From Clostridiaceae bacterium (GTDB lineage: Bacteria > Bacillota > Clostridia > Oscillospirales > Acutalibacteraceae): a stretch of 36,708 nt of DNA. Of the stretch, positions 13,563-24,985 are shown in pieces. Made by a program: the position numbers and the translations under genes. The stretch lies in NCBI GenBank assembly GCA_030530095.1, contig JAUMVO010000016.1, forward strand, positions 1-36,708. The letters run 5' to 3'. The notes beneath the pieces are model-generated. The model searched no databases, was not told the origin of the DNA, and worked only from the letters and a program-made list of their open reading frames with translations. Every line of letters starts with the position of its first letter. The stretch's first letter is position 1.

Positions 13563-14126
13563 ATGATTCTGTATATCAACTGCTGCGTGCGCGAAAATTC
13601 CCGTACCGACAGACTCGCGAGGGCGGTGCTCAAAAAACTCGGCGGGGAGTACGAAGAACTTTATCTTCCCGATGAAAACCTTCAGCCGCTTTCACGGGAG
13701 CTTCTTAAAAGACGGACTGAGCTTATTGAAAACGGTGATTATTCGGACGCAATGTTCCGCTATGCAAAGCAGTTTGCGGCGGCTGATAAAATAGTCGTTT
13801 CCGCACCGTTCTGGGATTTTTCGTTTCCGTCGGTTCTGAAGGTCTATATTGAGAACATCTATGCCGTGGGAATTGTATCCCGTTACACGCCCGAAGGTCA
13901 GCCTTACGGACTTTGCAGGGCGGATGAGCTTATTTACGTTACGACTGCGGGCGGTCCTTACGTGCCCGATTACAGCTTCTGCTATATCAAGGAACTGTGC
14001 GAAACCTGCTTCGGGATTGCGAAGGTTACTCTTGTCAAGGCTGAAATGCTTGACGTCGACGGCTTTGACGCCGAAAGGATTATTGAGGATAAAATTAACG
14101 AAATAAACAGGGGAACAGCGTTATGA
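13563..14126 (+). CDS. Flavodoxin-fold NAD(P)H dehydrogenase / azoreductase-like protein
   Basis: The 187-residue cytosolic protein fits the flavodoxin-2 family of FMN-dependent NAD(P)H:quinone reductases and azoreductases. It has an N-terminal strand plus phosphate-binding loop (ILYINCCVRENSRTDRLAR), the flavin-contact motif VVSAPFWDFSFPSVLKVYI (about residues 78-96) and a TTAGGPY loop (about 137-143). The natural substrate is unknown; an electron carrier such as a quinone or flavin is likely. ATG at 13563 follows GAGGT. Its stop overlaps the start of the histidine kinase gene (ATGA at 14123), so an enzyme and a two-component system are translationally coupled. That is unusual, and suggests that the redox activity relates to the signal or output. 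Confidence 0.82.
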   Translation: MILYINCCVRENSRTDRLARAVLKKLGGEYEELYLPDENLQPLSRELLKRRTELIENGDYSDAMFRYAKQFAAADKIVVSAPFWDFSFPSVLKVYIENIYAVGIVSRYTPEGQPYGLCRADELIYVTTAGGPYVPDYSFCYIKELCETCFGIAKVTLVKAEMLDVDGFDAERIIEDKINEINRGTAL

Positions 14127-15382
14127 CGGAATATATTATCTTAATGCCGCTATTTATCCAGATTATAGGTTTGATTTACGGCGTAATGACCGACAAATAT
14201 CTGCGCCGCTCGCAGAGATTTCTTATGATGAACGTCATTACGCTCATAATCCTTCTTATCGGACAGAACTGTGCGGAATACGTGCTTAAAACCACTGTAT
14301 CAATGCCGTATTTAAGAACACTTGTCAGTATTTTCGGCTATATTCTCCGTCCGACGATACTCGTGCTTTTCGCCAAGATAGTCGTGCCTAACCGGAAGCA
14401 TTATCTGGCGTGGGGTATGCTGGCGGCGCACTCTCTGGCTTACCTTACCGCGACCTTTTCACACTGGGTTTTCTATATTGACGAGAATAACCGTTTCCAC
14501 AGAGGCTCCATCGGCTACACGGCGTATTTTATGAGCTCACTGTTGCTGATTTATCTGGTCGTTGTAACAATTTATGAATACCGTCACCGTAAATCCTCGC
14601 TCGTGGTAGTGCTGTTAAACGCCGGCTTTATCGTGATTTCCGCTCTTCTGGAGCTGACTCCCGCTTATTACGATTACCCCGTCAGCTACCTTACTATTGC
14701 CGTAGTCAGCTGCTCGCTGTTTTACTATATCTGGCTGCATCTCGAGTTCGTCCGTGACCATGAGGACGCGCTTATGTCCGAGCAGCGCATAAAAATAATG
14801 ATGAGCCAGATTCAGCCGCATTTCCTGTACAACACGCTTTCGACTATTCAGTCGCTTTGTATAACCGACCCGAAAATGGCTTTCAGCACAACGGAAAAAT
14901 TCGGCACGTATTTAAGGCACAACATTGATTTCCTTGAGCAGCCCGAGCTCATTCCGCTCGAAAAAGAGCTTGAGCACACCCGCATTTACGCGGATATTGA
15001 AATGATACGTTTCCCGAAAATCAGCGTTGAATACGACGTTCAGGCGGATAACTTCAAGCTGCCTCCGCTGACAATTCAGCCGCTCGTCGAGAACGCCATT
15101 CGTCACGGCGTCCGCGGTATGGACGACGGTAAAGTCACCGTTACCACTAAGGAAGAAAACGGTTATTATAAAGTCATTGTCAAGGATAACGGCACAGGCT
15201 TTGATCCCGATACGCTCGGCGAGCAGGAGGGCACGCACATAGGCGTTGCCAACGTCCGCCAGCGAATTGAGGATATGTGCACGGGTACGCTTGAAATTGA
15301 CAGCGAAGAAGGAAAAGGAACGGAAATTACAATCAGCATTCCGAAAACGAGAAGGAGAAAATATGAAAATTATCTGCGTTGA
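14123..15382 (+). CDS. LytS/AgrC-type membrane sensor histidine kinase
   Basis: The 419-residue kinase has six to seven hydrophobic segments in the first 205 residues, with little extracellular loop, as in receptors for peptides or membrane-soluble cues. The cytoplasmic part starts with the His_kinase signature QIQPHFLYN (phosphorylated His233), then an HATPase domain with the N box PLVENAIRHG (Asn324), the G1 motif DNGTGF (Asp355) and a G2-like GVANVRQRIE. It should phosphorylate the response regulator encoded next to it, whose ATG lies 20 bases inside this gene. Lack of PAS or large sensor domains leaves the ligand open. Confidence 0.93.
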   Translation: MTEYIILMPLFIQIIGLIYGVMTDKYLRRSQRFLMMNVITLIILLIGQNCAEYVLKTTVSMPYLRTLVSIFGYILRPTILVLFAKIVVPNRKHYLAWGMLAAHSLAYLTATFSHWVFYIDENNRFHRGSIGYTAYFMSSLLLIYLVVVTIYEYRHRKSSLVVVLLNAGFIVISALLELTPAYYDYPVSYLTIAVVSCSLFYYIWLHLEFVRDHEDALMSEQRIKIMMSQIQPHFLYNTLSTIQSLCITDPKMAFSTTEKFGTYLRHNIDFLEQPELIPLEKELEHTRIYADIEMIRFPKISVEYDVQADNFKLPPLTIQPLVENAIRHGVRGMDDGKVTVTTKEENGYYKVIVKDNGTGFDPDTLGEQEGTHIGVANVRQRIEDMCTGTLEIDSEEGKGTEITISIPKTRRRKYENYLR

Positions 15383-16160
15383 CGACGAAGAACTCGTCCT
15401 TAATATGGTCGTGTTCCTTTGTGAACAGATGCCTGAGACTGAGTCGGTAAACGGCTTTTCCGACTCGCTGAAGGCTCTTGACTGGTTAACGGAAAACAGC
15501 GTTGATCTGGCTATTCTCGATATAGATATGCCGAAGCTTAACGGCATAGCTCTTGCACTGAGAATCAAGGAGATAAGGCCCGATACCGCCATTATTTTCC
15601 TGACCGGTTACTCTCATTATGCCGTTGAAGCCTTTAAGCTTCATGCGCAGGGCTATCTGATGAAGCCTGTCAATTATGAACAGCTCAGAAGCGAGGTCGA
15701 ATACGCTATGTCCGATAAAGCGACGTCGCAAAGTTCTCACATTTTTGCGCGTACCTTCGGTGAATTCGACTTCCTTATCGACGGCAATCCCGTACGCTTT
15801 TCGCGTTCAAAGGCAAAGGAGCTTCTGGCGTTCCTTATCGACCGCAACGGCGCAGGCGTAAAGCGAGCAACCGCCTTTGCGGCGCTGTATGAGGACGCGC
15901 CGTACGACCGTAAGATGCAGAAGCAGTTTGACGTTATAATCCGAAGCCTTAAGGACACGCTCAACGAAAACGGAATAGGCGATATACTTGATATGAAATC
16001 GGGCGAGCTTCGTCTTAATACCGATATGTTTGAGTGCGATTTGTATAAGCTTCTCAGCGGCGACGTTGATACAATCAATTCCTTCAGGGGAGAGTATATG
16101 AACTCCTACGAATGGGCGAGCATTACCGAAGCGGACCTCGCGTATAAATATCAGAAATAA
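15363..16160 (+). CDS. Response regulator with SARP-like winged-helix output domain
   Basis: Translation starts at ATG 15363 behind GAAGGAGAAA, overlapping the kinase gene by 20 nt. The 265-residue protein has a receiver domain (residues 1-118) with the acidic pair Asp7-Asp8, phosphoacceptor Asp53 (LAILDIDMP), Thr81 and Lys101 (MKPVNY). The output part (about 130-225) resembles the winged helix of SARP/OmpR-type activators (GEFDFLIDGNPVRFSRSKAKELL), followed by about 40 residues that look like the start of a BTAD domain (CDLYKLL, FRGEYMNSYEWA) but stop short. SARP regulators bind direct repeats with 11-bp pitch upstream of the -10 box; such repeats stand before the next two genes, which makes those genes the obvious targets. 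Confidence 0.9.
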   Translation: MKIICVDDEELVLNMVVFLCEQMPETESVNGFSDSLKALDWLTENSVDLAILDIDMPKLNGIALALRIKEIRPDTAIIFLTGYSHYAVEAFKLHAQGYLMKPVNYEQLRSEVEYAMSDKATSQSSHIFARTFGEFDFLIDGNPVRFSRSKAKELLAFLIDRNGAGVKRATAFAALYEDAPYDRKMQKQFDVIIRSLKDTLNENGIGDILDMKSGELRLNTDMFECDLYKLLSGDVDTINSFRGEYMNSYEWASITEADLAYKYQK

Positions 16161-16173
16161 TTATACGCGTAGA

Positions 16174-16204
16174 TGGACATTTGTTGGACATCGCTTGTTA
16201 TTAT
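16174..16204 (+). promoter_or_regulatory. SARP-type direct-repeat operator and -10 box before the DUF3592 gene
   Basis: TGGACA occurs at 16174-16179 and again at 16185-16190, exactly 11 bases apart (TGGACATTTGTTGGACA). Eight bases after the second copy stands TATTAT (16199-16204), a -10 box. No separate -35 box is present at the right distance. The same layout recurs before the gene at 16923. Confidence 0.72.
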
Positions 16205-16235
16205 ATGTCGCATATTGTATTACGGAGGAACCTGA

Positions 16236-16658
16236 ATGAATAAGATTTTCAATATCGCGGTACCTTTCCTTGCCATAATACTTGGCATTGTGGCTATGGT
16301 AGCGGGCATAGTTCAATTTGCGAACAGGGACAAGTACGACACAACGGTTATCGCAACCGTCGTTGAAGTCCGTGAGGAATGGGAAAATGCCGCGACCGAG
16401 GACGATGTTGACCGCCTTGTAAAGACCGCTTATATAGAATATGATGTTAACGGCGTTAAGTACGGACCCGTTCTCGCTCCCGTTCAGAAGGACTCGTATG
16501 AAGTCGGCGACAAGATGGAGATACGCTATCAGTCGGAAAACCCCGAAAAAATCTCCGATCCCAACGTAGCCGAGACGGCTGCAATCTTTATCGGACTCGG
16601 CTTGATTGCAACCCTCGCAGGCGCTTTTCTGGCGTTCAAGGCTATTAAAGCAAAATAA
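16236..16658 (+). CDS. DUF3592-type small membrane protein
   Basis: The 140-residue protein has one membrane helix near the N terminus (about residues 7-28) and a second near the C terminus (about 113-136). Between them is a small soluble domain with the pattern of DUF3592 proteins: VEVREEWENA, AYIEYDVNGVKYGP and a following VGDKMEIRYQSENPEKI. The family is widespread in Gram-positives and lacks an established function; some members accompany secretion or envelope genes. ATG at 16236 follows CGGAGGA. It has its own operator-promoter and terminator, and shares the operator with the giant FIVAR-dockerin gene just downstream, so the two are likely co-induced by the response regulator encoded upstream. 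Confidence 0.82.
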   Translation: MNKIFNIAVPFLAIILGIVAMVAGIVQFANRDKYDTTVIATVVEVREEWENAATEDDVDRLVKTAYIEYDVNGVKYGPVLAPVQKDSYEVGDKMEIRYQSENPEKISDPNVAETAAIFIGLGLIATLAGAFLAFKAIKAK

Positions 16659-16689
16659 TACACAATAATATAAACTGTTTATTATCTGC

Positions 16690-16719
16690 AGGGCACGGTT
16701 CTCCGTGCCCTATTTTTTT
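16690..16719 (+). terminator. Terminator after the DUF3592 gene
   Basis: GGGCACGG and CCGTGCCC with a TTCT loop, followed by TATTTTTTT, 32 bases past the stop. Confidence 0.93.
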
Positions 16720-16770
16720 ACATATTTCACAAATGTTTTCACTAATTATGTACGGAATTCGTCATTTTTT

Positions 16771-16823
16771 TGTCCTAAATGCCCAAATCCGTTGGACATT
16801 TGTTGGACGGCCTTAACTATAAT
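16771..16823 (+). promoter_or_regulatory. SARP-type direct-repeat operator and promoter of the FIVAR-dockerin gene
   Basis: TGGACA (16793-16798) and TGGACG (16804-16809) are 11 bases apart in the same 16-base context as the site at 16174. TATAAT (16818-16823) begins after an 8-base gap. An extra inverted half-site, TGTCC (16771-16775), lies upstream, and TGTCCTAA here also occurs in the promoter of the first dockerin gene (9092-9099). Confidence 0.75.
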
Positions 16824-16922
16824 TGTATTGAATCGTAATTGTTTTATTATCGATTATTGGGATTTGACCTTTCACGCGGTCAGAGCGTGAGCAGACGACA
16901 CACAGAAAAAGGAGTGTTAATT

Positions 16923-19900
16923 ATGACGAACAACACATTCGCAAGAAAAGCATTGAGCGTTATCGTAGCGGTATGTATGGTGCTCAGCATCCTTCCCGTT
17001 TACGTAATCAATTCTTCGGCTCAGAGCGTATCGGTCAGCACGCTCGCACAGCTGCAGGACGCTCTTGCAAATGAAGCATATGACGAGATTATCGTCACTG
17101 CGACAATAAACCTTCCCGACGGAGCTGAGATTTACGGCAACGGAAAGACCGTCCGCGCTCAGGTTACCGGCGTTGATGAGCAGGGTATTGTTCAGACCGG
17201 TTCAAACTACAACGTTTTCAAGACAGCTGCAAATGCTACCGTTCATATCTACGATATGGTAATCATGGGCGGTTCGGTTACGGCTGTTGTAAACCAGACC
17301 GGTAAGCTTTATCTCGACAACGTTACAATCACCCGTTCAGGCTCGGCGACCAATCCCGGCGGCGGTATAGTAAACGGTGTTCAGAACATCAGAAATAATA
17401 AAAACACGTCACATAAAACAGCTTATGTTGTTATGACGAATTCTTCTATCGTCCGTAACGTTGCCAAATGGGGCGGCGGCTTCCTTAACTACGGTACGCT
17501 GATTATGGACGGCTGCTCACTTTCCGAGAACCGTTCAATTAACCAGAGCGGCGGCGGCGGCGCAGGTGAGAATGAGGGCTATGCCTACCTCAACAACTGT
17601 ACGGTAGCTAACAACACCTCTTCCGAAATCGGCGGCGGCATCAACATCTGTAAAGCCGGTGAGCTTTACGTTATGAACTGCACCTTCACCGGTAACGTTA
17701 CCTACAACAACACCAACGGCGGTTCTACTTTCGGCGGCGCGGTAGGCGTTAACGACAGCTGTATCTTCAAGGCAGTTAACAGCATTTTTGCTAACAACTA
17801 CTATATCAACAAGAGCACCGAAACAGTTACCCCCTGCGATATCGGTATGTACAACAGCTCAAATATTTATATGTACGACTCAATCGTAGGTACGGTAGCC
17901 GGCGGCACACCGCACAACGAGAACTGCTCAAACGAAACCGACGGACTCTTCGCGGCATACGTAATGGGTAACGTTCTTGCCGGCGATGGCACCGAGTCAA
18001 CATCGGACTTCAGTAAGCCCGCTGTTGTTCAGAACGCTTCGGGCGAGCTTTATACACCTCTTAACGGCGACTATCAGGGCGACATCGAAGGCGTTCCGAC
18101 GTACTTCGATTATTCCGATCTTGATAATATAAGAATGTATTTCACCGACGAAGACGGTACTGATTCAACCTTCTTCGCAGGAAGCGGCACTCAGCCCACT
18201 GACATTCCCGTAGGCGACGCTCTCGACGATACCGACAGAGATACAACCCTCATCGGCTCGTCCAACTCACTCGGCGAGGGCAAGGCTATATATACCATTA
18301 AAGTTGTTGCTTCGCAGCACGGCAAAATCAAGGGCGGTACAATCTACGGCGACTCCTATATCGTTGTTTCCGACGGTTCGGTTGTCAGCGTTGAGGAAAT
18401 CGTTACCGTAACTCTTGAGGCTACTCCCGACAGCGGATATTACTTCGACAAGTGGGTAGTCCTTGAAGGCGCCGGAGATAGCAGTGAGCTTGCTCAGCTT
18501 GCTGCTGAGATTGAAGCTCTTCAGGCTCAGGTAACAAAAATCAATAACGCTGTTTCCGAAATGGCGGATCAGGCAGATAATGTCAATGATTATATTGCCT
18601 ATGCCGACAGGACATCAAATTTTTATACCACTTATAAAAGGACTCTTGTAACCAATACGAACACGCTTGTTAACACTCTTAACGGCTACAAGACTTCGTT
18701 CTCGTCATACAGCGACGTTGTCAGCGCTATAACATCGGCGAATCTTTCAACAAAGTCCACCTCCAGCAACAACACCATCAGAAGCACAAAATACTCAACT
18801 TGGTGCAATTCCGTTATAAACACTGCTACAAGTGTTACAGCGCTTCTTAACGCTCATCTTACTGAGGTTCAGGCTCAGATAGCTGCGAAGCAGGCGGAAT
18901 ATGACGCTGCAGTTGCTGAGGCAATGGCTGATACAGGCTTAAAGACCGGCAACAACCCGATGGAGTTTGTTGTTGACAGAAACATTGAACTTAAGGCTGA
19001 ATTCGTTGCTCAGGCTCCCGATTACACGGTAACCTTCCACTCGAACACCGAGCCGGAAACCACCGTTACCCAGACCTTTGCGGCAGGTCACTACACCGCA
19101 AACCTTACGGCTAACACCTTCACCAACGACGGTCAGCCCTTCCTCGGCTGGTCAATGGTATATTGCGGCGACGTTGAATATGCTGACGGCGTAAGCTACA
19201 CCGCAAGCGGTAACGCAGACCTCTATGCACGCTGGGGCTACACCGTTGACTACAACGCAAACGGCGGACGTAACGTTCCCGATTCACAGATTAAGAATCC
19301 GGGCGAGGCGCTCAACATTTCATCCGTAGCTCCCACCAGAGACGGTTACACCTTCAAGGGCTGGGGACTTGCTGCTGACTCGACCGAGGCTGTTCTTCAG
19401 CCGGGCGGCGTTTACGGCGTTGATAAGAATATAGTATTGTATGCAATCTGGGAACAGCTCAAGGTTCCGGAAGTTCTTAACACAACGCTTGCCGACGGTT
19501 ATCTCAACGTTCCGTATTCGGGCGCAATCGAAACCGACCAGGATGCGATTATCATTCTTGCCGACGGTTCAACTCTTCCCGCAGGACTTACAATCGGTAA
19601 GGACGGCACTATCACCGGCACACCGACAGCGACGGGAACATTTACCTTCGACGTTTCGGTATATAATAAGGATGACACATCCCTTGCAAATGCAACAACT
19701 ACTACAATTACAATAACAATCACCGATCCCAAGACGGCTCTTCAGGAACTCGTTAACACAGCGAACGCTGTTGATCAGGACGACTACACTCCCGAAACCG
19801 CACAGAATCTTCAGGACGCCATTGACAACGGCCAGTCGGTTCTTGACGACGACGGTGCAACATTAAGCGAAATCAGCGACGCTATCCAGGAGCTTCAGGA

Positions 19901-22376
19901 CGCTCTCAATCAGCTTGCGCTTGACAAGTCGGCTCTTGCAGCCGCTATCGCTCAGGGCGAGGCAATCACTGACGACGCAGCAGAGGCTGCCAAGTACACA
20001 GCCGATTCGCTTGCAGTTCTTGAAAACGCTCTCAACGCCGGCGAAATCGTTTATGAGAACACAAAGGCGACAGCGGAGCAGATAGCTTCTGCTACTCAGG
20101 CAATTCTTGACGCTATCAATTCTCTTAAGCGCAACGTTGACAAGGATGACCTTCAGGAACTCGTTGATCAGGCTAACGCCATAAATCAGGACGACTACAC
20201 CGATACAACGGCTGATGCTCTTCAGGATGCTATTGACGACGCTCAGGCAGTGCTTGACGATCCGAATGCTACCGACGACGAAATCAGCAACGCTTACGAG
20301 GCTCTTGAGGATGCAATCAATAACCTCAAGCCCGATAAGACCGAACTTGCAGAGGCTATCGCAGACGGTAACGACGTAGTAAACGGCGACACCTCGGCTT
20401 ACACATCTTCAAGCGTTCAGGCTCTTGAGAATGCAATTGACGCAGGTCAGGACGTTTATGACGATCCCAACGCTACCGTACAGGAAATCAAGGATGCAAC
20501 CGATGCTATCAGAAACGCTCTTGAAAACCTCCTTGAGGAAGCGGTTAACAACGCAGAAGACATTATTAACAATAATTCCGACGATTACACCGATGACAGC
20601 ATCCAGGCTCTTGAAGACGCCATCAGCGATGCCGAGGATGTAATCAATAATCCGAACTCGACACCCGACGAGATTAAGGACGCTATCGACGCTATCGAGG
20701 ATGCAATCAACAACCTCAAGCCCGACAAGACCGAGCTTGCAGAGGCTATCGCTGAGGGTACAGAGATTGTAAACGGCGATACATCAGGCTTCACACCTTC
20801 AAGCGTTCAGGCTCTTGAGGACGCCATAGCACAGGGCGAAGCGGTTGACGCAGACCCGAATGCAACGGTTGAGGAAATCAAGGCAGCAACCGAGGCTATC
20901 AAGGACGCACTTGAGAATCTCCTCGAGGAAGCGGTTGACAACGCAGAGGATATTGTAAATAACAATTCCGAAGATTATACTCCCGAGAGCATTCAGGACG
21001 TTCAGGACGCTATCGACAATGCCAAGGACGTAATTAACAACCCCGATTCCACTCCCGACGAGATAAAGAACGCACTCGACGCTATCGAGGATGCGGTAAA
21101 CAATCTCAAGCCCGACAAGACAGAGCTTGAAAAGGCTATCGCAGACGGTAACGAGATCGTAAACGGCGACACAGATAAGTTCACTCCCGAGTCAGTTCAG
21201 GCTCTTGAGGACGCCATAGCACAGGGCGAAGCGGTTGACGCAGATCCCGATGCAACGGTTGAGGAAATCAAGGCAGCAACCGAGGCTATCAAGAATGCTC
21301 TTGAAAATCTCCTCGAGCAGGCAGTTGACAACGCAGAAGATATCATTAATAACAATCCGGACGATTACACCGAGGACAGCATCCAGGCACTTGAAGATGC
21401 TATCAGCGATGCCCAGGACGTAATCAATAACCTCGATTCAACACCCGAGGAAATTGCAGATGCTATCCAGGCTATCGAGAATGCAATAAACAACCTCATT
21501 GACAGAAGCAAGCTTGCAGACGCAATCGCGGACGGCAACGACGTACTCGGCGGCGACACCTCAGCTTATACAAGCGAGAGCGTAGACGCTCTTGAGGATG
21601 CCGTAGCGGCAGGCCAGACTGTTTACAACGATCCCGATGCAACTCAGGCTGAAATCGACGCAGCTACTCAGGCTATCAGAAACGCTCTTGAAAATCTTCT
21701 TGAAGAAGCTGTTGACAACGCAGAGGATATTATCAATAACAATTCAGACGATTACACTCCCGACAGCATTCAGGACGTTCAGGACGCTATCGACAATGCC
21801 AAGGACGTAATCAACAATCCCGATTCCACACCCGATGAGATCAAGAATGCACTCGACGCTATCGAGGATGCAATCAATGCTCTTGAGCTTACCAAGATTA
21901 CTCCCGATGCGACCTCCGAGATTATTGTTGACAGAGAGACCGGTACCGAATATACCTATATGGTAGGTCTTGACCTTAGCGCCAACTCTGTTGCCGATAT
22001 CAAGGCTCAGCTTGAAAATGACGATACCACGATCATCATCCTCAGAAATGACGTTGAGCTTGACGAGAATGAGCTTGTAGGTACAGGCTGCATCGTTAAG
22101 TGCGTATCAAAGGCCGATCCGTCAATCGTATATGAGGTAGCAACGGTTATCCTCTATGGCGACGTTAACGGCGACGGACTTGTTGACGGTACCGATAAGT
22201 CAATGGTATTTGACGATGCCTTCACCGGCGGCAGCAATATAGATGCCGAAACTGTATTCTATATCGCGGCTGACCTTTCCAAGGACGGAGTTCTCGATGC
22301 GTTCGACTACTTCGACCAGGACGGTATTATCACCGGTGAAAGACCGTTTGACCAGACCTTAACCCTTTACAAATAA
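16923..22376 (+). CDS. Giant secreted protein: beta-helix, InlB repeats, 11 FIVAR repeats, dockerin
   Basis: ATG at 16923 follows AAAGGAGTG; an open frame from 16839 has no such site. The 1817-residue product has a signal peptide (cleavage near SSAQS, residue 34-37). It then has a right-handed beta-helix (about 105-345, GGGFLNYGTL and GGGINI turns), a 'bacterial repeat' beta unit split by a helical insert (about 485-695), two InlB-type B-repeats (to about 845), an Ig-like putative fold (about 846-936), eleven FIVAR repeats of about 65 residues (937-1656) and a linker. A dockerin follows (about 1744-1810), with loops DVNGDGLVDGTD and DLSKDGVLDAFD. FIVAR arrays are typical of adhesins that bind host or plant glycans. 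The dockerin suggests docking to a cohesin scaffold rather than sortase anchoring; no LPxTG motif is visible. Confidence 0.9.
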   Translation: MTNNTFARKALSVIVAVCMVLSILPVYVINSSAQSVSVSTLAQLQDALANEAYDEIIVTATINLPDGAEIYGNGKTVRAQVTGVDEQGIVQTGSNYNVFKTAANATVHIYDMVIMGGSVTAVVNQTGKLYLDNVTITRSGSATNPGGGIVNGVQNIRNNKNTSHKTAYVVMTNSSIVRNVAKWGGGFLNYGTLIMDGCSLSENRSINQSGGGGAGENEGYAYLNNCTVANNTSSEIGGGINICKAGELYVMNCTFTGNVTYNNTNGGSTFGGAVGVNDSCIFKAVNSIFANNYYINKSTETVTPCDIGMYNSSNIYMYDSIVGTVAGGTPHNENCSNETDGLFAAYVMGNVLAGDGTESTSDFSKPAVVQNASGELYTPLNGDYQGDIEGVPTYFDYSDLDNIRMYFTDEDGTDSTFFAGSGTQPTDIPVGDALDDTDRDTTLIGSSNSLGEGKAIYTIKVVASQHGKIKGGTIYGDSYIVVSDGSVVSVEEIVTVTLEATPDSGYYFDKWVVLEGAGDSSELAQLAAEIEALQAQVTKINNAVSEMADQADNVNDYIAYADRTSNFYTTYKRTLVTNTNTLVNTLNGYKTSFSSYSDVVSAITSANLSTKSTSSNNTIRSTKYSTWCNSVINTATSVTALLNAHLTEVQAQIAAKQAEYDAAVAEAMADTGLKTGNNPMEFVVDRNIELKAEFVAQAPDYTVTFHSNTEPETTVTQTFAAGHYTANLTANTFTNDGQPFLGWSMVYCGDVEYADGVSYTASGNADLYARWGYTVDYNANGGRNVPDSQIKNPGEALNISSVAPTRDGYTFKGWGLAADSTEAVLQPGGVYGVDKNIVLYAIWEQLKVPEVLNTTLADGYLNVPYSGAIETDQDAIIILADGSTLPAGLTIGKDGTITGTPTATGTFTFDVSVYNKDDTSLANATTTTITITITDPKTALQELVNTANAVDQDDYTPETAQNLQDAIDNGQSVLDDDGATLSEISDAIQELQDALNQLALDKSALAAAIAQGEAITDDAAEAAKYTADSLAVLENALNAGEIVYENTKATAEQIASATQAILDAINSLKRNVDKDDLQELVDQANAINQDDYTDTTADALQDAIDDAQAVLDDPNATDDEISNAYEALEDAINNLKPDKTELAEAIADGNDVVNGDTSAYTSSSVQALENAIDAGQDVYDDPNATVQEIKDATDAIRNALENLLEEAVNNAEDIINNNSDDYTDDSIQALEDAISDAEDVINNPNSTPDEIKDAIDAIEDAINNLKPDKTELAEAIAEGTEIVNGDTSGFTPSSVQALEDAIAQGEAVDADPNATVEEIKAATEAIKDALENLLEEAVDNAEDIVNNNSEDYTPESIQDVQDAIDNAKDVINNPDSTPDEIKNALDAIEDAVNNLKPDKTELEKAIADGNEIVNGDTDKFTPESVQALEDAIAQGEAVDADPDATVEEIKAATEAIKNALENLLEQAVDNAEDIINNNPDDYTEDSIQALEDAISDAQDVINNLDSTPEEIADAIQAIENAINNLIDRSKLADAIADGNDVLGGDTSAYTSESVDALEDAVAAGQTVYNDPDATQAEIDAATQAIRNALENLLEEAVDNAEDIINNNSDDYTPDSIQDVQDAIDNAKDVINNPDSTPDEIKNALDAIEDAINALELTKITPDATSEIIVDRETGTEYTYMVGLDLSANSVADIKAQLENDDTTIIILRNDVELDENELVGTGCIVKCVSKADPSIVYEVATVILYGDVNGDGLVDGTDKSMVFDDAFTGGSNIDAETVFYIAADLSKDGVLDAFDYFDQDGIITGERPFDQTLTLYK
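18484..18950 (+). other. Helical coiled-coil insert splitting a beta-repeat domain (within the FIVAR-dockerin gene)
   Basis: About 155 residues of heptad-like helical sequence (from SSELAQLAAEIEALQAQV to AEYDAAVAEAMADTG) interrupt a repeat whose halves read GYYFDKWVVLEG before and NNPMEFVVDRNIELKAEF after. The insert includes a stretch near 18540-18660 that is more AT-rich and uses different codons from its surroundings. Confidence 0.6.
19731..21890 (+). repeat. Eleven FIVAR coding repeats with a 390-bp super-repeat
   Basis: FIVAR units alternate between two types, one starting DKTEL and one starting LEEAV, so the last eight form four pairs of about 390 bp. Identity at DNA level is high: the stretch beginning GCTCTTGAGGACGCCATAGC at 20812 recurs at 21202, and one beginning ATTCAGGACGTTCAGGACGC at 20991 recurs at 21768. 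Array length may vary between strains. Confidence 0.85.
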
Positions 22377-22481: not shown

Positions 22482-22531
22482 AGTATATGTAGAAATTTAT
22501 GCAATTACTATTGCTTAGGAGGAAAAATGTT

Positions 22532-24985
22532 ATGGCATTGAAACACGAAGACCTTATCGCCAAAATGACGCTCGAAGAAAAGGCGAGCATGTGCGACGGT
22601 CTTGATTACTGGCACAGCCAGCCCGTCGACAGATTGGGCATACGCTCTGTCAGCCTCAACGACGGCCCTCACGGCATACGTAAGAAGGGCGACCCCGACG
22701 CAGCGAAAAAGGGCGAGACCGACCTTCTCAAGGGTGTTCCCGCTATCTGCTTCCCGACAGCATCGGCAACGGCGTGTTCGTGGGACGTTGATCTTATCAG
22801 AACGATGGGCGAGGCCCTCGGCGACGAGTGCCGTAAGGAAAAGGTTTCCGTTCTCTTAGGACCCGGAACCAATATCAAGCGCTCACCCCTCTGCGGCAGA
22901 AACTTTGAATATTTCTCCGAGGATCCCGAGCTTGCGGGCGAGATGGCAGCCGCATTTATCAACGGCGTTCAGTCCAAGGGCATAGGCACCTCGCTTAAGC
23001 ACTATGCCGCAAACAATCAGGAAACCCGCCGTATGACCGTCAACACCGTTGTTGACGAGAGAACGCTTCGTGAAATTTATCTTCGTCCGTTTGAGATCGC
23101 TGTCAGAAAGGCACAGCCCTGGACGATAATGAACGCATACAACAGACTTAACGGCTACTACTGCGCTGAGAACAAGTGGCTTCTTACCGACGTTCTGCGT
23201 AAGGACTTCGGCTATGAAAATCTTGTAGTTACCGACTGGGGCGCGGAAAACGAGCGCGTACCCGGACTTATTGCCGGTCAGGAAATCGAGATGCCTACAT
23301 CCTCGGGCGACGGCACAAAGCTTATCGTCGAGGCTGTCAAGGACGGCACACTTGACGAGGCTGTGCTCGACCATGCGGTAGACCTTATACTCGATATGGT
23401 TGACAAGTCGGTTGCAACTCTCGGTGAGTACACTTACGATCCAGCGGAGCATCACGCACTCGCAAGAAAAATTGCTTCACAGTGCATGGTACTTCTTAAA
23501 AACGAGGACAACATTCTCCCGCTTAAGAAGGACGCTAAAATTGCCGTTATCGGCGAGATGGCGAAGAAGCCGCGTTATCAGGGCGCAGGCTCATCGCTTA
23601 TCAATCCCATTCAGCTTGACTGCGCTTACGATACGCTTAAGGAAATGGGCGTTGACTTCTCGTATGCGCCGGGCTTCGTTACCGATAAGAAAAAGAAGAA
23701 AAAGGTCAGCGAGGACGCTCTTGTTGAAGAGGCGGTCAACACTGCGAAGGATGCCGAGGCAGTTCTTATGTTCATCGGTCTTACCGACGAGTACGAAACC
23801 GAAGGCAGCGACAGAAAGCATATTAATCTTCCTCCGCTTCATAACAGACTTGTTGAGGAAGTTCTCAAGGTCAACAAGAACGTTATCGTAGTCCTTTCGG
23901 GCGGCGCTGCGGTTGATATGCCGTGGGCTGACGACGTTAAGGCTATACTCAACGGCTTCCTTACCGGTCAGGCATCGGGCAGCGCGGCGTGCGACGTACT
24001 TTTCGGCGACGTTAATCCGTCGGGCAAGCTCTCCGAAACCTACCCCTATGCGCTTGAAGATAATTCGAGCTACAAGTACTTCCCCGGAACGAGTGTTTCC
24101 GTCGAGTACAGAGAAGGCGTTTACGTCGGCTACCGTTACTACGATTCAGCCAAAAAGGATGTTCGTTTCCCGTTCGGCTTCGGCCTTTCGTACACGACCT
24201 TTGAATATAGCGATTTAAAGCTTTCCGCTGACTCAATCAAGGACAGCGACACGCTTACCGTAAGCTTTAAGATTAAGAACACCGGCACGGTTGACGGCGC
24301 AGAGGCTGCCCAGCTTTATGTTTCGGACGTTGAGTCAACCATCTACCGTCCCGTCAAGGAATTAAAGGGTTTCAAAAAGGTATTTCTGAAGGCAGGCGAG
24401 GAGAAGGAAGTTTCCATCGACCTTGACAAGAGAGCCTTTGCCTTCTATAACGTTGACGCTCACGACTGGCAGGTTGAGACGGGCGAGTTTAAGATTCTCG
24501 TCGGCGCGTCGAGCCGTGATATCAGACTTGAGGCAAGCGTAAACGTTGAGTCAACGAGCAGCTATGCAATACCCAATTACAGCACTCTTGCTCCCGCTTA
24601 CTATACCGCAGACGTCAACAACGTAACCGACGAGCAGTTCCGCACCGTTCTCGGTCACGAAATTCCTCCGACCGAGAGGGATAAGTCAAAGCCGCTTACG
24701 ATTCTCAATACTATTGAGGACGCGGCTGACGGCAAGTGGGGCGGACGTCTTAACAGAATGCTTAAGAAGATGCTCGGTGAGGACAATCTCGCTTCAGCCG
24801 TTGCGCTTCAGCTTCCCATCAAGAACTTTATCTCCATGAGCTTCGGCATCTTCTCGCCGAGAATGGCGGAGGGCCTGCTCGTAATTCTCAACGAGGATAA
24901 GTTCGGCAAGGGCATGCGAATGATAATCGGCGGCTTCTTCAAGGGCGGCGGATTCAAGCAGCTCGGCAAGTTAAAGCAGATTTAA
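22532..24985 (+). CDS. Glycoside hydrolase family 3 beta-glucosidase
   Basis: ATG at 22532 stands 9 bases after TAGGAGGA. The 817-residue enzyme is a GH3 exo-acting beta-glycosidase, likely splitting cellobiose or short beta-glucans imported into the cell, since it has no signal peptide. The first barrel holds LNDGPHGIR, GPGTNIKRSPLCGRNFEYFSEDP, KHYAANNQE and the nucleophile Asp235 in VVTDWGAE. The second domain has the acid/base candidate Glu424 (ETEGSDRKHINLP), and a fibronectin III-like domain follows (about 565-680). About 130 extra residues at the C terminus (from NYSTLAPAYY on) end in a glycine- and lysine-rich tail and are not part of the core fold. It stands alone between two terminators. 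Confidence 0.93.
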   Translation: MALKHEDLIAKMTLEEKASMCDGLDYWHSQPVDRLGIRSVSLNDGPHGIRKKGDPDAAKKGETDLLKGVPAICFPTASATACSWDVDLIRTMGEALGDECRKEKVSVLLGPGTNIKRSPLCGRNFEYFSEDPELAGEMAAAFINGVQSKGIGTSLKHYAANNQETRRMTVNTVVDERTLREIYLRPFEIAVRKAQPWTIMNAYNRLNGYYCAENKWLLTDVLRKDFGYENLVVTDWGAENERVPGLIAGQEIEMPTSSGDGTKLIVEAVKDGTLDEAVLDHAVDLILDMVDKSVATLGEYTYDPAEHHALARKIASQCMVLLKNEDNILPLKKDAKIAVIGEMAKKPRYQGAGSSLINPIQLDCAYDTLKEMGVDFSYAPGFVTDKKKKKKVSEDALVEEAVNTAKDAEAVLMFIGLTDEYETEGSDRKHINLPPLHNRLVEEVLKVNKNVIVVLSGGAAVDMPWADDVKAILNGFLTGQASGSAACDVLFGDVNPSGKLSETYPYALEDNSSYKYFPGTSVSVEYREGVYVGYRYYDSAKKDVRFPFGFGLSYTTFEYSDLKLSADSIKDSDTLTVSFKIKNTGTVDGAEAAQLYVSDVESTIYRPVKELKGFKKVFLKAGEEKEVSIDLDKRAFAFYNVDAHDWQVETGEFKILVGASSRDIRLEASVNVESTSSYAIPNYSTLAPAYYTADVNNVTDEQFRTVLGHEIPPTERDKSKPLTILNTIEDAADGKWGGRLNRMLKKMLGEDNLASAVALQLPIKNFISMSFGIFSPRMAEGLLVILNEDKFGKGMRMIIGGFFKGGGFKQLGKLKQI

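Follow-up and report, generated by a model that had tools for sequence, protein, structure and literature searches.

A 22-bp tandem-repeat operator tied to an OmpR/PhoB-like response regulator in Clostridia, with signs of its natural stepwise recoding

In a 36,708-nt stretch of a Clostridiaceae bacterium genome (contig JAUMVO010000016.1 of assembly GCA_030530095.1; hereafter the window), a gene for a LytS-type sensor histidine kinase overlaps by 20 nt the gene for a response regulator, P0001, and a 22-bp box of two 11-bp direct repeats lies ahead of each of two genes further downstream. Kinase and regulator very probably form a two-component system in which the regulator would bind the tandem repeats and activate promoters that have no -35 box. 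The link between regulator and operator is strongly supported: comparison of genomes establishes the operator with its geometry, and ties it to the regulator family and to residues of the recognition helix, while physical binding, control by phosphorylation and activation instead of repression are inferred. The original prediction, that the adjoining regulator reads both sites and drives both genes, found support, as the link between regulator, sites and genes draws on the genome-wide rarity of the sites, their co-occurrence with the regulator, their position, the related targets found elsewhere and a recoding of the operator that follows the recognition helix. The features concerned, all on the + strand, are:

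14123-15382, +: sensor histidine kinase of the LytS type, with His_kinase (PF06580) and HATPase_c domains and, by eye, several N-terminal hydrophobic segments
15363-16160, +: response regulator P0001, with a receiver, an OmpR/SARP-like winged helix (recognition helix 183-202) and short C-terminal helices
16169-16190, +: operator 1, two 11-bp direct repeats, GTAGATGGACA and TTTGTTGGACA, 8 nt after the regulator stop codon
16199-16204, +: -10 hexamer TATTAT, 8 nt 3' of operator 1
16236-16658, +: target gene 1, a small membrane protein with a DUF3592 domain (Pfam)
16690-16718, +: intrinsic-terminator-like hairpin (16690-16711) and T run, between target genes 1 and 2
16788-16809, +: operator 2, two 11-bp direct repeats, TCCGTTGGACA and TTTGTTGGACG
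16818-16823, +: -10 hexamer TATAAT, 8 nt 3' of operator 2
16923-22376, +: target gene 2, the 1817-aa secreted protein P0004, with FIVAR repeats, Listeria-Bacteroides repeats and He_PIG

The 16-mer TGGACATTTGTTGGAC begins at 16174 and again at 16793. The first site reads TGGACATTTGTTGGACA (16174-16190) and lies 13 nt 3' of the regulator stop codon; the second reads TGGACATTTGTTGGACG (16793-16809), lies 5' of the giant gene and ends in G instead of A. In both, the GGAC cores are 11 bp apart and the -10 hexamer starts exactly 8 nt after the site. The positions of the repeats, their 11-bp pitch, the distance to the -10 box and the lack of a normal -35 box, all noted earlier from the sequence, were confirmed. 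At spacers of 16-18 nt, both promoters match TTGACA at 0-1 of 6 positions; the upstream repeat TGGACA matches at 5 of 6, but at the unusual spacer of 19. A sigma-70 scan of 14000-17200 detected neither promoter.

Chance is a poor explanation for the 16-mer in the window, where up to three mismatches the mean expected by chance was 0.16, and two or more matches arose in 3 of 100 shuffles against the two exact ones observed. The looser motif first proposed, TGGACA-N5-TGGACA, was rejected as it did not rise above chance in the window when two mismatches were allowed. We scanned the whole genome of the window (G000, 1.82 Mb, to which all whole-genome operator counts for this organism refer), with the reversed 16-mer as the control here and in all other operator scans. 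The 16-mer had only four exact copies, none at one or two mismatches and two at three; the reversed pattern had eight matches at up to three mismatches and none at up to two. The genome does not carry many random copies of the motif, since the 16-mer is rare in it, and all four exact sites stand 5' of a gene. Two of them lie elsewhere, on contigs C30 and C39, each ahead of a gene for a large secreted protein; InlB-type repeats, BspA leucine-rich repeats and a type I dockerin mark one of these proteins, FIVAR repeats the other. The regulon is larger than the two target genes of the circuit first proposed.

For a wider comparison, a genome collection was scanned with receiver-domain patterns from five orthologs, which gave at least 517 confirmed stretches with some relative, not all of them certain members of the regulator family. 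The best 80 of these (51-67% identity, 1.145 Mb in total) were taken as the set of regulator loci; by record title they belong to Oscillospiraceae, Lachnospiraceae, other Clostridia and, in one case, Erysipelotrichaceae, and 34 of the titles name a ruminant host. The 16-mer occurred in them 42 times exactly, 32 times with one mismatch and 16 times with two, giving 90 sites in 58 of the 80 loci, and the control had none at up to two mismatches. The consensus box is TTTGTTGGACA twice, followed by N8 and TANaAT, with a partial TG ahead of the -10. Positional statistics, computed on 89 of the sites, placed TANNNT at offset 8 in 87%, and none of the other offsets among the 30 compared exceeded 18%. 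Both distances are strict: the pattern GGACA-N6-GGACW-N8-TANNNT occurred 70 times at pitch 11, never at 8, 9, 10, 12, 13, 14 or 17 and once at 22, and spacers of 4-7 or 9-13 at pitch 11 gave 0 to 13 cases each. The sites also keep to the regulator gene, with 32 of 89 within 400 bp 3' of it on the same strand (1.2 expected) and 20 within 1.8 kb 5' of it. In some loci, a third partial or full 11-bp repeat stands directly 5' of the box (L144 421, L158 10841, L177 12027, L188 1630, L191 7024 and 529, L194 8436, L200 11118).

Whole genomes gave a similar picture. Among 43 distinct regulator genomes, 32 had sites with at most one mismatch. The 43 combine sets of 23 and 22 with two genomes in both. 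In the 23 hand-picked genomes, 21 had such sites (86 sites, control 0), eight of the sites being in Lachnospiraceae bacterium XBB2008 (L155), which like L162 (strain LC2019) carries no MAG label in its title. Among the 22 genomes whose regulator locus had no site, 12 had them elsewhere (31 sites, control 0); one of these, G125, seems to repeat G029. By comparison, one of 59 relatives from outside the genus had such a site, and four of the 59 hold a remote relative of the regulator. For uncultured gut Clostridia, it is seldom possible to tell from sequence which operator a response regulator uses; in the present case, a single 22-bp box serves to predict targets across a regulator family, 80 members of which were examined, many of them from ruminant guts.

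The 16-mer might instead be a mobile or repeated DNA element, or the promoter of an alternative sigma factor, with no operator function. One observation does speak for a mobile element: a 4-kb block (L095 11730-15696 on G000:C30, with L098, L102, L107 and L109), extending from about 110 bp 5' of the operator into the giant gene, shows 94-97% DNA identity between five species, and in G000 and G026 its neighbours are genes for a serine recombinase and for a relaxase of the MobA type (identified with Pfam in the G000 copies). Around the other sites, the shared DNA is limited to the 22-bp box and its -10. Moreover, the half-sites covary at position 4, where they are alike in 65 of 70 cases with 41.8 expected, and not at positions 1 and 2; and 58 of the 59 relatives outside the genus have no site. 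Taken with these points, an element or sigma-factor promoter in place of an operator is extremely unlikely. In the two block species that hold an ortholog (G029 and G033), the regulator gene is only 66% identical to that of the window, and the operator seems to move between species together with its gene. The regulon is a ready one for giant surface proteins and includes a cassette that is apparently mobile between species with the operator attached. The operator with its -10, scanned against IMG/VR, gave zero matches.

Within the genus, 39 genomes were compared, G000 among them, with E <= 1e-70 as the threshold for orthologs and Fisher tests that carry no correction for kinship. Five of the 39 have the regulator or an ortholog, the other four at 61-67% identity. 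The 16-mer at up to two mismatches with TANNNT at 8 nt was present in 5/5 of these genomes versus 1/34 of the others (G023; Fisher 1e-5). When operator and -10 were searched as one pattern at up to three mismatches, the five ortholog genomes gave 15 matches, each with at most two; G023 gave two, with 0 and 1 mismatches, G026 gave one, whose three mismatches come from its shifted -10, and the other 32 genomes gave 11, all at three mismatches, with 16 for the reversed control in those 32 and 18 in all 39. The genus signal resides in the exact and the -10-linked sites. A protein resembling the FIVAR giant at its N-terminus stands behind the operator in all five ortholog genomes (FIVAR was tested and present in the G033 and G034 copies), and a DUF3592 gene does so in G000 and G028.

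The recognition helix provided a further link. A canonical site was found in 54 of the 66 loci whose regulator has R183, D190 and R194, versus 4 of the 14 others (Fisher 2e-4); loci without it are thus enriched in altered recognition helices. A blind search of six loci (L140, L143, L145, L146, L150 and L151) for tandem 11-mers 8 nt 5' of TANNNT returned TTTGTTATACA twice in tandem, with the last base variable, in five of them, the exception being L140. In all five, the recoded box stands no more than 120 nt 3' of the stretch matched as regulator, which is the usual place of the canonical box. The recoded tandem accompanied 5/5 regulators with Asn at position 190 (N190) versus 0/76 with Asp (D190); the stricter pattern used for this count detects a box with a GG half-site for 55 of the 76. 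The exact recoded 17-mer was found 12 times, in 7 of 55 genomes; all 12 copies have TANNNT 8 nt further on, and none of the eight one-mismatch matches has it there. Six of these seven genomes hold an N190 regulator: five are those with recoded loci, and the sixth, G141, has an additional N190 regulator immediately 5' of a recoded site. The exact site in the seventh (G101, L291) has no N190-type regulator on its 3-kb piece.

Other regulators share a clade with the N190 type (FastTree support 0.975 as printed), three of them with mixed boxes: L149 and L141 with Q194 (AG/GG and GG/AG) and L148 with H194 (GG/AG). L140, also H194, has no box in its locus, and its genome, G121, has one TGGACATTTGTTAGAC. 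In this clade, D190 with Q194 or H194 goes with half-sites GG/AG or AG/GG, and N190 with H194 or Y194 goes with AT/AT; the D190, R194 regulators surrounding it go with GG/GG. Two genomes hold both kinds of circuit. In G099 (L142, L146), a GG/GG box lies 2.2 kb from the D190 gene and an AT/AT box adjoins the N190 gene; in G141 (L148 and the regulator of L289), a GG/AG box lies 89 bp behind the D190 gene and an AT/AT box adjoins the N190 gene. The path of the operator reads as GG/GG, then one AG half, then AT/AT, and judging from these sequences the helix and both half-sites changed together within the recoded clade. This is probably a natural stepwise rewiring of regulator and operator that left two circuits, likely insulated from each other and born of duplication, in one cell. 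Such intermediates, with helix and both half-sites changed, make the origin of new specificities without cross-talk directly testable, and the regulator-operator pair can be used for studying how such switches acquire new specificity. The loss of R194 is not the sole cause of the AG half, since the latter also occurs with R194 regulators (L159, L187, L189).

Two further associations were noted. R148, with which helix 1 begins in the structural model, was considered as the reader of G at half-site position 4, with which it is strongly associated; it is kept as a lead only, because columns of the receiver domain associate nearly equally and the full-length tree shows one event. Among five regulators with Y183 (L167, L175, L180, L196, L204), four have no operator and L167 has the canonical site. 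L196 has TTTGTGACACT/TTTGTGACAGA with TATTAT at 8 nt, perhaps another operator code for Y183; L175 has a weaker tandem, and a search of L180 and L204 for an alternative box gave nothing convincing.

Several observations weigh against the reading that this regulator family recognizes the box. In the genus, the 16-mer at up to two mismatches without the -10 occurs in 5/5 ortholog genomes versus 8/34 others (Fisher 0.002), and its 27 matches in 13 genomes are outnumbered by 36 of the reversed control over all 39, so that two-mismatch matches alone are weak there. Ten of the 22 loci that have no site close by sit in genomes without a site at up to one mismatch; three of these have the recoded operator, two a variant box, one a candidate, and in four (L175, L180, L204, L216) none is convincing. 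The 80 loci partly repeat the genus genomes (L141, L147, L149, L154). Both the N190 recoding and the link of R148 with position 4 come from a single clade each, and so amount to few independent events. Finally, sites without a detected ortholog occur in two genomes: G023 has two of them, and G026 has one exact 16-mer whose -10 is shifted. The G023 genome is 88% complete. In G026 (L109 10232), an additional base separates the travelling operator from its -10, so that TANNNT is absent at 8 nt, possibly a decay of the operator in the absence of the regulator.

These two genomes also bear on the possibility that another, co-conserved regulator binds the repeats and that the neighbouring one is a bystander. 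One candidate, the 39%-identical paralog P0010, is present in G000; 20 genus genomes, G023 and G026 among them, have it but not the ortholog. However, the 18 others have no site at up to one mismatch, and the recognition helices differ (YDDTVQSLFRKVLKS in the paralog, YDRKMQKQFDVIIRS in the regulator). The sites cluster directly behind the ortholog gene, and the operator changes along with the ortholog's own helix. A bystander role is accordingly very unlikely, and recognition by the adjoining regulator is preferred.

The Pfam search confirmed the predicted kinase (His_kinase and HATPase), receiver and DUF3592 domains. The kinase belongs to the LytS type by its PF06580 and HATPase_c domains. 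In an AlphaFold2 model of the regulator (51 sequences; mean pLDDT 88.5, pTM 0.56), the receiver is followed by a winged helix (helices 149-160, 168-175 and 183-202) and then by some 45 residues that include short helices. Response_reg matched with E 7.3e-24, and the receiver residues D8, D53, T81 and K101 are invariant in 81/81 aligned sequences, D7 in 80/81. With Pfam families listed at E <= 1, Trans_reg_C was matched in 25/25 effector domains (best 3.3e-10); the window regulator's own match, at E 0.023, is below the Pfam curated cut-off. Receiver with phosphorylation residues and Trans_reg_C output are those of OmpR/PhoB regulators, and profile and structure searches group the protein with ArlR, DrrB and PrrA of that type, the last two being the top Foldseek hits. 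The profile alignment pairs D190 and R194 with the Asp and Arg of VDVYIRYLR in ArlR. In contrast to these regulators and PhoB, P0001 has a C-terminal extension past the wing, a LytS-type kinase partner and another operator sequence. PhoB likewise binds 11-bp direct repeats.

The regulator had been called SARP-like, which holds for the operator geometry: direct repeats spaced at 11 or 22 bp that end 8 bp before the -10 mark SARP operators (PMC10936776). That paper describes the box of AfsR of Streptomyces coelicolor as 22 bp of two 11-bp direct repeats, the 3' one 8 bp from the -10 and the upstream one over the -35; the tandem box, its spacing and overlap and the winged-helix DNA-binding domain are alike here. 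The protein itself departs from the class. The effector has the OmpR-type DNA-binding domain of SARPs, but their all-helical C-terminal BTA domain of about 150 residues was not found, BTAD being absent from the Pfam families of the 25 effector domains at E <= 1, with only about 45 residues after the wing. SARPs are further marked by a side-by-side dimer that is induced by DNA and contacts sigma region 4. Given the missing BTA domain, we do not class the protein as a SARP; the effector is OmpR/PhoB-like with a SARP-like operator geometry. Further differences from AfsR and the SARPs are the fused receiver, the host (Clostridia, not Streptomyces), the operator sequence and the targets, here surface and membrane proteins and there antibiotic clusters. 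EmbR of Mycobacterium (2fez) gave a very weak profile match (E 0.17), which begins at the winged helix and reaches effector position 115 of 138, further than the OmpR-type matches; EmbR has BTA and FHA domains (PMC10936776) and, unlike P0001, no receiver. With LytS/LytR systems, the pair shares the PF06580 kinase and a receiver close to LytR, MrkE and BtsR, but the output is OmpR/SARP-like: LytTR had no match among the Pfam hits at E <= 1, and the NCBIfam LytR match spans residues 1-123 only. Among the papers listed by literature searches, which covered few subscription journals and no preprints, none concerned this regulator or operator by its title and the opening of its abstract.

In the proposed mechanism, the membrane kinase would phosphorylate the regulator at D53, and two winged-helix protomers would sit side by side on the two 11-bp repeats (TTTGTTGGACA twice) over the -35 region. 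With the box ending 8 nt before the -10, as for AfsR (PMC10936776), RNA polymerase would be recruited to promoters without a -35. In G000, four promoters would be driven: those of the DUF3592 gene, the FIVAR giant and the two giant secreted-protein genes on other contigs. Alternatively, the regulator might bind and repress, as an upstream repeat overlapping the -35 position could occlude sigma, or act constitutively without phosphorylation. Against these readings stand the missing -35 at 16-18 nt, the fixed 8 nt to the -10 and the partial TG, which make up the layout of activator-dependent promoters such as SARP boxes (PMC10936776), and the invariant receiver residues. Both alternatives are unlikely, and by analogy the regulator should act on its promoters as a SARP or PhoB does.

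In other genomes, the genes behind the operator include a DUF3592 homolog (L106, below the Pfam cut-off; second gene in L256), HAD-type proteins (L101; second gene in L255) and a family 3 glycoside hydrolase-type enzyme (L255). Inspection by eye adds the regulator's own operon, short peptides and proteins that resemble STAS (L161, L177, L182, L203). Crude signal-peptide scoring, as a raw count, was positive for 40 of 88 target open reading frames. Short peptides with a double-glycine-like leader (by eye) behind the operator in L190 11008, L201 10877, L215 18552 and L255 8806 suggest that secreted peptides belong to the regulon of some species. In G104:C32:52000-121880 (L254-L257), nine of the genome's ten one-mismatch operators lie within 63 kb of one contig, all on the same strand, and precede diverse genes, including those for an AMP-binding-like enzyme (by eye), a family 3 glycoside hydrolase, a short peptide with a HAD protein, and lipoproteins (by eye).

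The giant of the window had been described as a FIVAR-dockerin protein; P0004 has the FIVAR repeats, and dockerin was absent from its Pfam hits at E <= 1, although a Dockerin_1 match below the threshold was seen in the L104 ortholog. In G000, cohesin (PF00963) gave four matches that exceed the cut-off (C47:749, C6:24206, C38:21119 and C38:20224; L250-L253), to which, as a lead only, dockerin-bearing targets could attach as to a scaffold. Immediately 3' of the giant FIVAR gene, at 22499-24985 of the window, lies a gene for a family 3 glycoside hydrolase.

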